A stretch of 64,000 nucleotides of DNA from assembly GCA_021030905.1 (NCBI GenBank), contig JAGFMI010000004.1, forward strand, positions 1,984,001 through 2,048,000, given 5' to 3'. Positions 11,761 to 52,539 of this stretch are shown here, piece after piece. The stretch comes from Pyrenula massariospora. Taxonomy: Eukaryota > Ascomycota > Eurotiomycetes > Pyrenulales > Pyrenulaceae. How positions within the stretch are numbered: position 1 is the first letter of the stretch; every line of letters starts with the position of its first letter. Under the pieces are notes generated by a model, which was not told the origin of the DNA, ran no database searches, and saw only the letters and a program-made list of their open reading frames with translations. The position numbers and the translations under genes were made by a program.

Positions 11761-13785
11761 TCAAACAATGCAGAACACGTCCGCTTCATCTTCCTTCCAG
11801 TTCACAGCCTCACCATACATCATTCCGTCAACGAAGCAATCTCCCACCACCGTATACTTTCCGTTGTAGGTCGGTCGGAGGATTATCGGCACGTTTGAGC
11901 CGTGTAGTATGTAGACACCGTCACCTGGTTCTGTCGTGTGTGGACATAAGGCAAATGGATACTTGTCCAGCGAGACGATACAACGAGCCCACATGACAAC
12001 CATCGAATCAATGAGCTCTCGAAGCCATTTATCAAGTTGGGTTGGCTGAGAAGACGTGTCGGAAAGTTTACCCCAGTCAAAGTGAATGTACTCCTGATTG
12101 GTGAGTTGATTGAGCATTGAATTAATCGCCGTTTTATTCCAATTGAAGAAACCTAAGCTTTTGCCTTGCTGGGCTCCTTTAGCTTCTTTGTGAATGTTTC
12201 CGGCTCGTCCGCCTGTGTTACCTTCCTCAGTACGCATACCTTCACCATTACCCTTTTCTCCGTCGTCCTCCTTATTGAAAAATTTCCCCAGGCGATTATA
12301 ATCACAGCATACAGTACGCACGATACTGACGCGGACATGGTCAACATGTGTTTCCCCGCGATCCACAGCTGATCTCAGAATGGACGGCATTATGACCTCT
12401 CGAAATTCTCCAGCCATGTCCTGGAGACTGGAATCTGCACCAAAATTCTCCGGCTTGTTGTAAATGGTGCCGGTAACCTCGGCCACAAGTTTACCTAACA
12501 CTAATAACTCTCGCTCGCTCGCGTTCTGGACGGCAACATACTCTCTCTCAAGTGAAGCAGAGAAATCACTGTAGTACTCGAGGCCATAGGGGTCTGTACC
12601 GTCAGTCCAATCTGGACACCACGAAGGTAGTCCTGCGACCGACCCTTTACCTTTGAGCGTGTGAACGTGCTTCAAAATGTCTAAGGAGTCAGCTGTCAAG
12701 TATCTCGCAACCTTTATGAAAAGCTCAGCGGGTGATTGAGTGTAATCTACCTGCAGGCTTGGCTGATTTTTGGAAGTTAGGTCGACGTCCAGGTTAGCAA
12801 AGATTCTGTCTCGAGGATTAGTACATTCGTAGTAAGACCGTGAATCGCTAAGTAGCTCCAGCAACGAAATATTCTGTCTCTTTATGCGCATTCGTCGGTA
12901 ATGCTCAATGTTCTTTATCGCAGTTTCTCCAGATATGGACGAACTGAAATATCCTAGTAACGTTATCGTCAAGGTGAAAGATCCCCACTTCGCCTGATGA
13001 GGGCCGCAGTGGATGACGAGGTTTTCCGAGATGACGGCTTCCTGGAACGTCCACAGCCGGGTAAACCATTTTCTTCGAAGAATCTTAACAAACGCTTCCC
13101 AGCCTGGATGGTTGTAGTGCAAAGTTTGTTCGCCAAACTCAAGGACATTATCACTGCGGGTCTGGTAATATATTCGAAGCCTTTCTCCCTGCATGTCTCG
13201 TTGGGCGAGATCAGGCAACCCTTGTTCGATTATATCAACGAGTTCAAAAAAGTCCCTTGTACCCTCATCCTCATCGCCTAACCAGATGACACATTCGTCA
13301 GCCCGGGCAAAGATCTGCGCCATCAGCGAAACTTGCTGACTCCGTTCTTCTAAATTCTCCTGATCAATGCAGATCTGATCCATCCATAGATATTTTCGGG
13401 GATAAGCGATACCAATCGTAGAGAGCGCTCGCCATGCGTTTTCAGTGGTTTTCAGGACGCCTTTGCGTCCAAGTCCATCTAAATTGATAGTATGAGTCTT
13501 CTCGTCACTACCCCAGGCGTAGGATATCGCGTGGAAGCGGAGGTCAGGATCGTTGAGCGCGCGTTCTTCTATGGAGAACGTTAGGGTTCTTTCGGCAGCC
13601 GCGTCAGTAGTTGTGACCGGACTGTAGAGGCGTTTGATCACCCGGATGGACCTAAAGGAGCTAATAGGCGAAAACAGGAAAGTATCTTCTGCATTAGTTG
13701 TGCCCGCTTTGCTAATAGTGGGAATGCGATTCTTGTCCTGTCTGCGGAGCTTGCGGCGCAGGCGAGTGAGACTTAGACGAGCCAT
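11761..13785 (-). CDS. HET-domain (heterokaryon incompatibility) protein
   Basis: Single-exon protein of 674 residues with a HET domain (about residues 60-220), the N-terminal effector or signalling module of fungal non-self recognition proteins. Signature blocks: DLRFHAISYAWGSDEKTHTI, ALSTIGIAYPRKYLWMDQIC with IDQENLEERSQQVSLM, and ARADECVIWLGDEDEGT. The rest has SLLELLSDSRSYYECTNPRD RIFANLD-like spacing, the usual marker that follows a HET domain, and a C-terminal GDCFVDGMMYGEAVN typical of the family. There is no NACHT or repeat domain, so it is a HET-only protein whose partner and trigger are unknown. It reads through without breaks. An insert rich in Gly/Glu/Lys (about residues 545-580) looks disordered. 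HET families are large and vary among isolates. Confidence 0.92.
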   Translation of the reverse strand: MARLSLTRLRRKLRRQDKNRIPTISKAGTTNAEDTFLFSPISSFRSIRVIKRLYSPVTTTDAAAERTLTFSIEERALNDPDLRFHAISYAWGSDEKTHTINLDGLGRKGVLKTTENAWRALSTIGIAYPRKYLWMDQICIDQENLEERSQQVSLMAQIFARADECVIWLGDEDEGTRDFFELVDIIEQGLPDLAQRDMQGERLRIYYQTRSDNVLEFGEQTLHYNHPGWEAFVKILRRKWFTRLWTFQEAVISENLVIHCGPHQAKWGSFTLTITLLGYFSSSISGETAIKNIEHYRRMRIKRQNISLLELLSDSRSYYECTNPRDRIFANLDVDLTSKNQPSLQVDYTQSPAELFIKVARYLTADSLDILKHVHTLKGKGSVAGLPSWCPDWTDGTDPYGLEYYSDFSASLEREYVAVQNASERELLVLGKLVAEVTGTIYNKPENFGADSSLQDMAGEFREVIMPSILRSAVDRGETHVDHVRVSIVRTVCCDYNRLGKFFNKEDDGEKGNGEGMRTEEGNTGGRAGNIHKEAKGAQQGKSLGFFNWNKTAINSMLNQLTNQEYIHFDWGKLSDTSSQPTQLDKWLRELIDSMVVMWARCIVSLDKYPFALCPHTTEPGDGVYILHGSNVPIILRPTYNGKYTVVGDCFVDGMMYGEAVNWKEDEADVFCIV

Positions 13786-36720: not shown

Positions 36721-37406
36721 ATTTGATGAATGCCTTTCTATTAGGGTTTCCATTGATTTGATTGAATTTAAAAAAGGATGTTCCCACCGGTCGAGGGACT
36801 CGGTAGCACGGCGTTGGCAGGGAAAACCGCAGGGGGAGAATCACCAGACAGGATAGTCCTCATGTCTTACTTGACACCAGGGTTTCCAGGACAATGGGAT
36901 AACGCAAGAAGACAGGAGGACTGTGTCCTTGGTTTGTTAGATAAGTTTAACATTAGGTTTTGCATGAGAATAGGAGATGGAGGACTCTCTCCTTGTTTCT
37001 GAGATAAATTTGACTCCAGAATTTTTCAGGAGAATAGAAACAGGTAGAAGATTCTATCTTTTTGTCTTCAATAACTTTAATTTCAGGGTTTTCAGATGAA
37101 GAGGGGAAGGCACAGAATCTTATCTTTATTCCTTCAATAGATTTAACTCCAGGGTTTCCAGGAGAAGGCAGAAGGCCATATCCTGGTTTCTTAGAAAAGA
37201 TTGCCGACCTACAATATTTACAATCACGACACGGTGCATGTAATTAGAATACCAAGGCAGTCACAGTAAATCACAGAGTAGTAAATATGGACAGTAGAAA
37301 GAATCTTCAATTCCACTCTCAGGAAAAAGTCTAGAATACACGAGGCGGAGTATTGCTCTCGCTCCTCAGAATCGGCGAGCTAGTCAACTGCCTCAGATTC
37401 TCCAGC
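36721..37406. other. Convergent 3' intergenic region with minisatellite
   Basis: About 690 bp between the ECM2 stop and the end of the longer HacA reading frame. The central part is a degenerate tandem repeat (listed separately); the rest is unremarkable. Confidence 0.6.
36870..37200. repeat. Degenerate minisatellite, five units of 59-76 bp
   Basis: Five consecutive units, each opening with a version of TTTAACTCCAGGGTTTCCAG and followed by GAGAA, a purine-rich centre and a pyrimidine-rich TCTT...TTTCTT...ATAGA end. Approximate units: 36870-36945, 36946-37008, 37009-37075, 37076-37141, 37142-37200. Copies differ at roughly a third of positions, so the array is old. It lies in the 3' flank shared by ECM2 and HacA. 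Confidence 0.75.
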
Positions 37407-39011
37407 TCAGCCCGGAACTCGCCGGCCGAGCCCAGACTCAGTACTCCACGCCACCGTCCCATGCTTGCCACCATCTGCTGCCAAACCGCCCAAGCTCGCT
37501 TGCAGAAGTGCGACCCACTCCCGGTGCTCGCTGGCGCTCTCAACATCATCCATGTCAAAATCTGAATCTGAATCTTCTGTCGCTGTCCCCTGAAAAGAAT
37601 TTTGATGCATTGCTTTTGATTGCTGGATCGAGTGCTCCAGGTCCACCGCGCCGATGGCGCAGAGGGAACGGTGGATGGTGTACGCCATCGTCATGAGGGA
37701 AGCCCACTCGGACGCCAGCGACGGGTCGGTCGCAGGGTCGAATCCTTCGCTAACCAAGCGTCGCGAGGCCCGACCGGCGGCTACCTTGAGAAGGTGCGCT
37801 GATTTCGGGCTCCACGACGCCAGCTTGCGGAGGAGTCTCCCGCGGAAAACCGAGGTCGAAGGAGGGGTTGTTGTGGAGTGGGGACGCGATGACGAGGCCG
37901 TCGGGGGAGTCATCGTGGAGGTAGGAGTTGTAATCAAAGACAGCATCAAGGTGGTTATCTTGTCGAGGGCACTCGGCGAGAAGTTGATTAATTGAGTCTC
38001 GGCCCTGGAGAACATTGCCGAGATCCGCGAGATCGTTCTCGTGGAGACTCTCCAGGTTAAAGCCATCAACATCGTTTGGAAACAGAAGAGGATCGACCGA
38101 AGGGAGTTGGTGGTCATGTCCGTCGGCCTCGCTAACCGGCCCGACGCTTCCAGTGGACACTGCTGGTCATAGGTCGAAAACACTGCTGCTGAGTGTTGTG
38201 ACCCACTGGAAAGGTCGAGGAGGCTAGGTGAGGTCGTAGTCGCCTTGGCGTCAGGACGGCGCAGGCTATCGACTTTAGGTAGGGAGACGTTGTGAGAGCC
38301 GCCCAGGGAGCGATGTTGCTCAACCTGAGTGGTCGCACTGTTTCGCGAACCGTGGATCGAAAGTAAGCGGTCGGCGTGACTGATGTTGAGGGAAGGCGCT
38401 AGAGTAGAGTTGGACATGGCCGATGCGGATCGTGACATGGATGAGTAAGTAGGAGGAGTGGCGAGATAGGAGCCATGGACGGAGTAATCCTCTGTGAAAT
38501 CACTCCCGTCTGCTTCGCTCTTGAGCGTAAGATCAGGACTGGGGAAATGTTCGGAAGTTGGGGTAAGGAGAGATGGCAGGGAGGACGGCATGGCAGAGGG
38601 CATTGCTACAGGAGCGCTGCCGCCCTGGAGATGACGGAGACGTTCTTCGAGATGGCGAATGTATTCTTTCTGTTCTTCATTTTCTCTTCTCAGTTCGGCG
38701 GCTTCGGCCTTTTGCTTCTCTCGAGACTTGGCAGCGGAGTGACGGTTGCGCTCAATTCGTTCAATATTGCGTTGTTGTCTCTCTTGGTCAGTCTTGGCTC
38801 GCTTTCGCGGTCCAAGCGTCCTGGGGATGTCTGGTATCTCCTGTCCCCAAGACTTCCTCTTCTTCTTCTTGTCTTTCGGGAGAGAGAGGGTGGCCGTAGC
38901 ATCTGACGTAACACTGGCAGGAGGACTCATAGCGGAGATTGAGGGGGTTTCAGAGGCACACCGGTCGAGCTGACTAGCAGCGACGTACCCAGGGGGCGGT
39001 GAGGCGTTCAT
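37407..39011 (-). CDS. hacA: bZIP factor HacA/HAC1 of the unfolded protein response
   Basis: Transcription factor that raises ER chaperone and secretion capacity. The basic region and zipper are at about residues 50-130: KKKKRKSWGQEIPDIPRTLG, RKRAKTDQERQQRNIERIER, NRHSAAKSREKQKAEAAELR, then leucine-spaced heptads. Unspliced, the frame is 534 residues, 39011-37407. A second frame begins at 38160 or before and ends at 37750; its protein (DGFNLESLHENDLADLG region) looks like the real C-terminus. The frame offset equals removal of 26 (or 20) nt, as expected for Ire1 splicing. Spliced, the protein would be about 411 residues, shorter than the unspliced one, as reported for Aspergillus HacA. Ser/Thr/Pro-rich activation regions follow the zipper. 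A short upstream ORF precedes the start. The start is ATG in AAAGATGAACG. Confidence 0.92.
   Translation of the reverse strand: MNASPPPGYVAASQLDRCASETPSISAMSPPASVTSDATATLSLPKDKKKKRKSWGQEIPDIPRTLGPRKRAKTDQERQQRNIERIERNRHSAAKSREKQKAEAAELRRENEEQKEYIRHLEERLRHLQGGSAPVAMPSAMPSSLPSLLTPTSEHFPSPDLTLKSEADGSDFTEDYSVHGSYLATPPTYSSMSRSASAMSNSTLAPSLNISHADRLLSIHGSRNSATTQVEQHRSLGGSHNVSLPKVDSLRRPDAKATTTSPSLLDLSSGSQHSAAVFSTYDQQCPLEASGRLARPTDMTTNSLRSILFCFQTMLMALTWRVSTRTISRISAMFSRAETQLINFSPSALDKITTLMLSLITTPTSTMTPPTASSSRPHSTTTPPSTSVFRGRLLRKLASWSPKSAHLLKVAAGRASRRLVSEGFDPATDPSLASEWASLMTMAYTIHRSLCAIGAVDLEHSIQQSKAMHQNSFQGTATEDSDSDFDMDDVESASEHREWVALLQASLGGLAADGGKHGTVAWSTESGLGRRVPG
38163..38188 (-). other. Predicted Ire1 (non-spliceosomal) intron of hacA
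   Basis: On the sense strand ACACT-CAGCAGC-AGTGT forms a 5-bp stem with a 7-nt loop, and 26 nt later GAC-CAGCAGT-GTC forms a 3-bp stem with a 7-nt loop. Both loops fit CNG|CNGN, the Ire1 consensus, with cuts after the third base. Removal of 26 nt changes the frame from that of the bZIP to the one ending at 37750 and gives TCA-GCA-GTG. Cutting after the second CAG of the first loop would give 20 nt, the size known for Aspergillus and Trichoderma, and the same frame. There are no GT...AG borders. Confidence 0.75.
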
Positions 39012-39066: not shown

Positions 39067-39114
39067 TCACGAAAATGGTATTTTGGGGTGCAAAATAGTA
39101 TGCTGATTGAACAT
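39067..39114 (-). CDS. Short upstream ORF in the hacA leader
   Basis: ATG at 39114 opens a 15-codon frame (MFNQHTILHPKIPFS) that stops at 39067, 55 nt before the hacA start codon. In Trichoderma and Aspergillus the hac1/hacA leader carries an upstream ORF that lowers translation and is removed from the mRNA under ER stress by 5' truncation. Whether this one is in the transcript depends on the start site, which cannot be seen here. Confidence 0.5.
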   Translation of the reverse strand: MFNQHTILHPKIPFS

Positions 39115-40648
39115 GTCGAGGTGGAGGGGTTCTCGACTGTTTGTGTGTGGTCGCCGAACGGGACACGGTGTCCTTTGTCTAGTTAAAGCAAGGACGCCTC
39201 ACAGGCAGCAGAATAAAGTGATCAGGTAACTGTCTGACTAAGAAAACATGTGACCAGAAGAAGGCTCGAAGCAGCAAGGTCGAGGGATGAGGACTGGGTG
39301 TCTTTAGGGGATCGTGAGCGTAGTGTTGGTGGACGGGGAAGGGGGGATTTATAGAAGTATGTGTCCTTTTCTCAGCCCTTGCGGCGGGACGACTAACGTT
39401 CGTTCGCGACACCCCCTGGCTTCGTGGATCACCCCCTTCCGTTTCTTGGCCCTCCTCCGGCCCCGCTGCAGCCATCCTCCAGTGCCACAAATCGACTTGG
39501 ACGGCGATGCTGCTATCCTGGTCACCTTCCTCTGACTGTCATTTGGTGTCAGCGGAGTGCATGATGAACTTCCCATCTGGGCATCCTCCGCTGGCAAGGC
39601 GTCCGTATTCCCAGTTTAGCCGACGCGAGACGCTCGCTCAGGTCAGCTGCGCCTCTCGGATCGAACGTGGGACGCCCCTCGGAAGAACGAGCTTTGGCCT
39701 ATTTCTCCCTTCCACGCTCCACCGAGCCGAAAAAGCCACCCCTGAACTTTTCTTGCGCAATCCGTCTGCTCAAAATTCTCCTTGAATGAGAATTGCGAGA
39801 GCGAACTCTAAGGCCTCCACCCCTTCCCCTTGTCCCCCACCGCGTTTCATCTGCGAGCACTCTGATTTTTTGTTGCACTTTCCGCCCGAAGATCTCTCCG
39901 CCAATCTGTTTGATCTTGACTCAAAGCCCACTCTCTTTATGACACGGAGAATGACGATCACTCATCAATTCGACATTCTAGATGAAGGAAACTACGCGCG
40001 GCAGCGGCGCTCTGCAACCACGGCTCAGGGACTCGACTATCGAGGACCACCAACCAACACCAATAGCTACCACGGCGCTGATTATGAATAGTTCGCGTTT
40101 CCTAAATTTTTTTAATTTTCTGTCTAATTGTGTGCCGTGTTGCGACGGCGGGATATCCTCTATTAGAATGTCCGGCTGCGCTATGTGAAGTCGGCGAGGG
40201 CAAGAAATGCATGGCCCACCCTTTGCCAAAATAGACTGCCTTCCGCAAGGCTGAGAGGGCTTACAGTAATAAGCGGCGCGGCTGCCCATTTCTTGACGTG
40301 ATCCGCCGCTGGGTGCTCTATGTCATGCCTGTCAGCCCCAGGATTTCCCGCCTAGAACAATCACGTTGGAGTTTGGGGGCCGCACTGTTGCTCAAAGGCC
40401 GTGCGACAAGAATAGATATACCAACGCTTCCTTTGCGTCTTGTTTCATGTTGGCTCCGCTGCAGCAACACTTCTGTGGCCGAGTATATCCAAGTTGGTCG
40501 CTGCCGACTGTAGTCGTGTATAACATATTCATGTTCACCAACGCTCGATCCGCCCCTTCCCCAGGCCACTCGATGAAGCATCGGAGAATTGAGCTATGGC
40601 GATGTCCCTAGATTACAAGGGGGGGCGATCTGAGAAGCCTTGTGTATC
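39115..40648. other. Intergenic, hacA promoter and leader
   Basis: About 1.5 kb between hacA and Dr1, both on the minus strand. hacA leaders are long in other fungi, so the part up to about 39600 may be transcribed. A 101-codon plus-strand frame at 39786-40091 and a 103-codon minus-strand frame at 39179-39490 have no recognised motif. Confidence 0.5.
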
Positions 40649-51113: not shown

Positions 51114-52539
51114 ATGGATTACGTCAAAGGCTTCCCTTTCTGCCCCTTCATCATGCCGAGATGTCGTTCATTGGTTACCTTGATCTCATTCATAGTATGG
51201 AATTCTCTGGCTGCGCAGGAAGTGCTTTTTCTGCAACAGCCTCTCATTCCCGTTGAAGGGGATGCACGTGATGGGTCAGAGGCTTGGATATCGAAACATT
51301 CTAATCATGAAAAGATCCACCAATTTGTACGATATCGTCTGAACATTCTTGAATACTTGTCTAACTTTAAGCTAGGAATTAAGACATATCGTCTCCCATG
51401 GTATCGCCGAGGATGATCAGACGTTCAACCGATATGATATTGATGACGGGTTCCTCCGTAGTGAGGACGGTCTATCCCAGTCTCCTTTTGATCAACCATT
51501 ATTTCAGATCAGCTCTTCAGAGACAAAGATTGAGCACCTCAAAGATCGCTCCACTTCTCACATCCACGACCTCCTCTCTGCCGCACGCTACTACGGTTCC
51601 TCCATCCGCTCTCCTCCCTCGCTCTGGACCACCTCCTTAACCCCAGCCCCTAACGTCACCGACCGTACCACCGTCTGGTCTCTGGCCAAGATGACATCCG
51701 ACGCCTACACCCCCGATCCCCCCCGCCGCGACCTCTTCAACGGCACGCACGACTTCAACCAATCCCTCTCCTTCGGCTGGTCCACCGCCGGCTTCCGCGG
51801 CCACGTCTACGCCGACACCACCAACACCACCGTCATCATCGCCGTCAAAGGCACCGAGCTCTTCTTCCACAACACCTCCACCGAAGACAAGATCAACGAC
51901 AACCTCCTCTTCGCCTGCTGCTGCGGCCAGCAGGGCCACTACCTCTACAAGCAAGTCTGCGCCTGCGCCACCGCCACCTACACCTGCAATTCCACCTGCC
52001 TTTACTCCGCCCTCACGCACCCCTCCCGCTACTACGCCGCCGCCCTCGCCGTCTACGCCAACATCTCCGCCCTCTACCCCCACGCCACGCTCTGGCTCAC
52101 CGGCCACTCCCTCGGCGGCGCCCTCGCCTCCCTCCTCGGCCTCGCCGTCGGCGCCCCCACCGTCACCTTCGAGTCCCCGCCCCAAGCCCTCGCCGCCTCC
52201 CGCCTCGGCCTCCCCCTGCCCCCGGGTGCCCGCACCCACGCATCCCGCCGCCACACGGCCGCCGCGCATTTCGGGAATACGGCGGATCCGATCTTCATGG
52301 GCGCGTGCAACGGGGCGCTGAGCCTGTGCACGCTGGCCGGGTTTGCGATGGAGTCGCAGTGCCACGCGGGGGGGCGGTGCGTGTATGATACGGTCCGGGA
52401 CAAGGGGTGGAGGGCGTGGGTGGGGCATCATCGGATTGATGATTTGATTGGGAATGTGATTGAGGTCTATGATGAGGTGCCCGGGTGTGCGGTAGATCGG
52501 GAGTGTGGGGAGTGTTTTAATTGGTATTTTAGGGATTAG
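51114..52539 (+). CDS. ATG15: Autophagy-related lipase ATG15
   Basis: Vacuolar phospholipase that breaks down autophagic and Cvt body membranes. Two exons, 51114-51326 and 51376-52539, 458 residues (445 from the second ATG at 51153). The junction gives HQFELRHIVSHG, where the family has KLRHIFHHG; donor GTACGA, branch CTAAC, acceptor GCTAG. The N-terminal signal anchor is SLVTLISFIVWNSLAA. Then AGFRGHVYADTTNTTVIIAV with KGTE, CCCGQQGHY, and the lipase box WLTGHSLGGALASLLGLAVG (GxSxG). VTFESPPQALAASRLGLPLP, HFGNTADPIFMGACNGALSL and GFAMESQCHAG are the usual ATG15 blocks. The C-terminus is short (ends CGECFNWYFRD), without the long Ser-rich tail of some fungi. C-rich sense strand to about 52250, then G-rich. 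Confidence 0.92.

Follow-up and report, generated by a model that had tools for sequence, protein, structure and literature searches.

The window analysed here, a stretch of 64,000 nucleotides from Pyrenula massariospora, carries on its minus strand an open reading frame of 534 amino acids (37407..39011, ATG at 39011), which we assign with good confidence to hacA and which, read without splicing, gives the protein HacA-u. Its neighbours in the window encode an Slt11-type splicing factor, bystin/Enp1, an NTE-type phospholipase, zuotin, a GH65 protein and a HET-domain protein. Against PDB entry 6rxt the bystin neighbour scored 505 bits, and against 5wlc 294 bits; we take these to be Chaetomium and S. 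cerevisiae structures, respectively, which points to a filamentous ascomycete as the source. The HET-domain (heterokaryon incompatibility) gene lies at 11761-13785 on the minus strand. Between hacA and the Slt11-type gene there is a degenerate repeat (36871-37166, spacing ~64-76 nt, TRF period 64) with four copies of a 24-nt core, which match the reference copy at 67-100%; no hairpin is common to these copies, a small CUCC/GGAG hairpin being found in two of the four and absent from the other two. Upstream of the main start, and assumed to be present in the transcript, are a minus-strand ORF of 15 codons (39070..39114) and a second one of 3 codons at 39249 on the same strand. For filamentous fungi, it has been proposed that upstream ORFs repress the HAC1 mRNA in its unspliced form (PMC8071499).

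A bZIP basic-region signature is located at 38759 and is the sole match in a six-frame translation of the whole window (127,996 residues). The Pfam models bZIP_2 (17 bits, cut-off 22.3) and bZIP_1 (13.4 bits, cut-off 27.6) both match the ORF below their cut-offs, indicating that the bZIP is divergent. AlphaFold modelling without an alignment predicted with high confidence that residues 68-129 of HacA-u form one helix, with pLDDT values of 82-95 over the block of residues 71-130 in an otherwise poor model (mean 45.6), and the KKRKSWGQ...PRKRAKT stretch of the predicted protein presumably resembles that of known HacA. When the PDB was searched with the protein encoded by the 5' exon, no hit had E < 0.3 and no fungal HacA was retrieved; an NCBIfam search gave nothing close to its cut-offs, and one scan of viral contigs yielded no relatives of hacA.

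An earlier note on this DNA had claimed that the bZIP frame is linked by a short excision to the frame ending at 37750. Indeed, removal of 26 nt joins the bZIP ORF to the frame that terminates at TAG 37752-37750, providing a predicted spliced protein, HacA-i, of 411 amino acids. The proposed 5' exon (38189..39011) thus holds the start codon, the basic region and the zipper up to the putative 5' Ire1 cut, and the HacA-i 3' exon covers 37750..38162, both on the minus strand. To compare the frames, a codon score was trained on seven ORFs of the window that have Pfam support; these gave 0.183 in frame (sd 0.08, 46 chunks) and -0.059 and -0.077 off frame. Across the whole 5' exon the bZIP frame scores highest (0.13 vs -0.03 and 0.01), with the frames weakly separated and almost level over ~38400-38200. 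For the spliced C-terminus (37750..38162) the score is 0.264, reached by none of 2000 dinucleotide shuffles (null 0.007, sd 0.047), and the best-scoring frame is in order the bZIP frame, the spliced frame to 37750 and the bZIP frame again to 37407.

The point of the frame switch holds the two 7-nt CNGCNGN loops, flanked by the complementary arms ACACT/AGTGT and GAC/GTC, that the earlier note had described. In the 5' splice-site hairpin (38179..38197, minus strand) the loop CAG↓CAGC (38191-38185; the arrow marks the putative cut) is closed by a stem that extends to 6 bp, AACACU/AGUGUU (38197-38192 with 38184-38179), with pair probabilities of 0.79-0.95. The 3' splice-site hairpin (38156..38168, minus strand) presents the loop CAG↓CAGU (38165-38159) on a 3-bp stem, GAC/GUC (38168-38166 with 38158-38156), whose pair probability is only ~0.3, as it is in competition with a longer form of the exon-exon stem. 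The minimum-energy fold lacks this 3' stem, a point against an Ire1 intron, and forcing both hairpins together costs 0.5 kcal/mol. Of 200 shuffles of the 74-nt region, three fold at least as well as the native sequence and 197 less well; in the 201-nt context ten of 200 shuffles fold equally well, so the fold is less remarkable there. A chance test was performed for two loops 15-60 nt apart with both stems of at least 3 bp, one of at least 5 bp and G-U pairs allowed, these stem thresholds having been picked after the site was seen. Of 5000 shuffles of the gene made by each method, one of the dinucleotide shuffles and 91 of the synonymous-codon shuffles contained a qualifying pair. Over the whole window, both strands included, two pairs qualified against a shuffle mean of 0.11 (n = 200, of which 20 held at least one). 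The second stem-closed CNGCNGN pair, at 52285/52264 on the minus strand, has its loops 21 nt apart and lies antisense to a lipase ORF; it is probably due to chance, and the twin loops alone are therefore no proof of an intron.

A scan of 3 kb with the Rfam covariance model RF04247 (Hac1/XBP1 intron) gave a full-length match at 38216..38143 on the minus strand with 40.7 bits and an E value of 9.8e-6, 0.3 bits short of the gathering score of 41; the alignment puts the two loops in the register that removes 26 nt, at the highest posterior mark. No Rfam family reached its gathering score anywhere in the window, and the other two Rfam matches were rejected as chance (E values of 6.4 and 7.6). The matched region includes a 9-bp outer stem between the exons (38211-38203 with 38156-38148, minus strand), which, in keeping the exon ends together, recalls the 'RNA zipper' reportedly described for XBP1. 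The presence of an Ire1-type intron in hacA, as claimed in the earlier note, is therefore supported by a model that found both place and register independently, though just under its gathering score. The opposing explanation, in which there is no Ire1 intron and the change of frame stems from faulty sequencing, gene decay or a conventional intron, could draw on the similar, probably chance, loop pair elsewhere in the window and on two weak, overlapping conventional-intron candidates upstream of the Ire1 site, found by a motif scan of 39400-37000 (38350-38224 and 38338-38224). Against it, a search for conventional introns that would link the spliced frame to the tail in the right phase gave 0 candidates under the rule used. 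Together with the RF04247 match at the switch point and coding-like scores on either side of it in the two frames, this makes such an explanation very improbable.

We consider it most likely, with a probability of about 0.85, that this is the hacA/HAC1 gene of a filamentous ascomycete, encoding the regulator of its unfolded protein response, and that it holds a spliceosome-independent 26-nt Ire1 intron at 38188..38163. The hacA mRNA would then carry this intron into the cytoplasm, where, under ER stress, the Ire1 RNase would cleave each 7-nt loop behind its third base (CAG↓CAGC, CAG↓CAGU). With the exons kept together by the outer stem, the 26 nt would drop out and the exons would be sealed by a tRNA ligase, switching the frame from the 534-residue HacA-u to the 411-residue HacA-i. 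The exon ligase is RTCB in animals and of the Trl1 type in fungi.

The length of the excised piece was analysed separately, as removal of 26, 23 or 20 nt leads to the same frame with products of 411, 412 and 413 amino acids, respectively. Cuts after 38189 and 38163, the third base of each loop, would excise 38188..38163, corresponding to 26 nt. The claim in the earlier note that 26 nt is the best geometry gained support from the covariance register, the CNGCNGN sites and the energy of the 5' hairpin: only three CNGCNGN sites are present in 38260-38100, their pairs permit 26 or 23 nt and never 20, and the 5' hairpin folds at -3.5 kcal/mol in the 26-nt register compared with -0.8 kcal/mol, and a different shape, in the 23-nt alternative. 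The 20-nt alternative raised in that note does keep the frame, and 20 nt is the length reported for Aspergillus species, T. reesei and V. dahliae (PMC11508391, PMC2606855); however, no CNGCNGN pair at the site is 20 nt apart for it to use, and its 5' cut would read CAG↓TGTT, making this length barely credible. A register of 23 nt, overlooked in the earlier note, keeps the frame but has an unpaired 5' loop, and is the more serious rival of the two. Here the 5' cut would fall one CAG later, at the second CNGCNGN site (38188) and at the equivalent position in the 9-nt direct repeat CAGCAGTGT, whose copies at 38188-38180 and 38165-38157 are spaced by 23 nt. In Aspergillus, likewise, the excised length is that of the repeat spacing. 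The hacA intron borders there are reported as ambiguous because of a CTGCAG repeat (PMC11508391, PMC2606855), and 23 nt is the cDNA-confirmed length reported for N. crassa (PMC4488935). Against this, G38189 lies opposite G38181, leaving the 23-nt 5' loop unclosed, and the covariance model takes the 26-nt register with top posterior marks. Excision of 23 nt is thus unlikely, and 26 nt is our best reading, with 23 nt as the rival to exclude, because the 23-nt 5' loop is flanked by G/G and its fold is weaker and differently shaped. Junction calls at this site need care, given that the border repeats permit several lengths in one frame, and the 9-nt direct repeat can yield a false 23-nt junction through enzyme template switching.

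HacA of A. brassicicola was reportedly treated by Joubert in 2011. A range of 20-26 nt is given for filamentous ascomycetes in PMC8071499, and we infer from the species list of that paper that A. brassicicola supplies the value of 26; no further fungal case of 26 nt was met in the literature searched for fungal 26-nt introns. The contrast drawn in the earlier note with a usual fungal length of 20 nt is not supported and makes 26 nt look rarer than it is, as the published fungal lengths vary (20 nt, 23 nt and a range of 20-26 nt). Elsewhere, lengths of 26 nt in mammals, 23 nt in C. elegans and 19 nt in C. albicans (PMC2606855), and of 56 nt in C. neoformans and 19-29 nt in some other orthologues (PMC3154848), are reported. 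Since 26 nt is within the reported 20-26 nt range, the intron is not exceptional, and we regard it as a well-supported but ordinary fungal Hac1/XBP1-type Ire1 intron, most likely of 26 nt. It adds a case of this length from a fungal HacA that is divergent. As in hacA/HAC1 of filamentous ascomycetes, the intron is short, has CNG↓CNGN loops and repeats at its borders and shifts the frame to a shorter protein. Unlike in those genes, the borders read CAG↓CAG instead of CTG↓CAG, and the length is at the top of their range; a conventional intron in the bZIP region, reported for Aspergillus and V. dahliae (PMC11508391, PMC8071499), was not found here. The resemblance to metazoan XBP1 lies in the 26 nt shared with mammals and in the loop rule and outer exon stem common in the Rfam model, whereas the protein belongs to a different lineage. 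Yeast HAC1 likewise holds its cut sites in hairpins at both borders, although its introns are long (252 nt reported in S. cerevisiae and 626 nt in C. parapsilosis) compared with 26 nt here. The S. cerevisiae intron is reported to pair with the 5' UTR and block translation, which would not be expected from a piece of 26 nt.

The tail read only in the unspliced frame (37410..37748, minus strand, 113 codons) also has a coding-like codon score of 0.200, reached by none of 2000 dinucleotide shuffles (null 0.018, sd 0.053), and its two other frames score -0.053 and 0.021. Among the open runs of 100 codons or more that do not belong to the training frames, 3 of 148 reach 0.2, the top one being the spliced hacA frame. 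A synonymous-only codon preference failed to separate the frames of the tail (0.040 vs 0.007 and 0.024; training ORFs 0.040, sd 0.064, vs about -0.013 off frame), so the signal in the tail comes from the full codon score, amino-acid composition included. No Pfam match and no confident AlphaFold fold were obtained for the tail. The hydrophobic patch SILFCFQTMLMALTW, in the unspliced frame just past the intron, was considered as an XBP1u-like membrane-targeting region and rejected: the unspliced frame stays open in 2688 of 4000 synonymous shuffles of the spliced frame, and the hydropathy of the patch is equalled in 1370 of these 2688. With the patch at chance level and thus no evidence of the membrane-targeting segment of XBP1u, only the tail beyond 37750 is unusual.

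Combined with the lack of a connecting conventional intron, the codon score of the tail gives a hint that it is translated from unspliced mRNA. It is conceivable, at somewhat less than even odds, that the gene provides two functional proteins, with the tail (37748-37410) under selection as protein and HacA-u having a role of its own instead of being just a precursor; the 26-nt piece would then switch the cell between two proteins. Arguments for such a role have been made for vertebrate XBP1u, and one has been proposed in A. fumigatus on the basis of the phenotypes reported (PMC7580959). Unspliced and spliced products of 526 and 417 amino acids are reported in V. dahliae (PMC8071499), of 438 and 345 in A. 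flavus, with predicted helices in the unspliced part (PMC11508391), and of 433 and 342 in A. fumigatus (PMC2606855). Counting against the two-protein reading, V. dahliae Hac1-u was reported as undetected by immunoblot and the unspliced form as dispensable there (PMC8071499). The chance-level hydropathy of the patch after the intron also speaks against it. The coding-like tail offers a sequence-level argument for a translated and selected fungal HacA-u, a question raised in PMC7580959.
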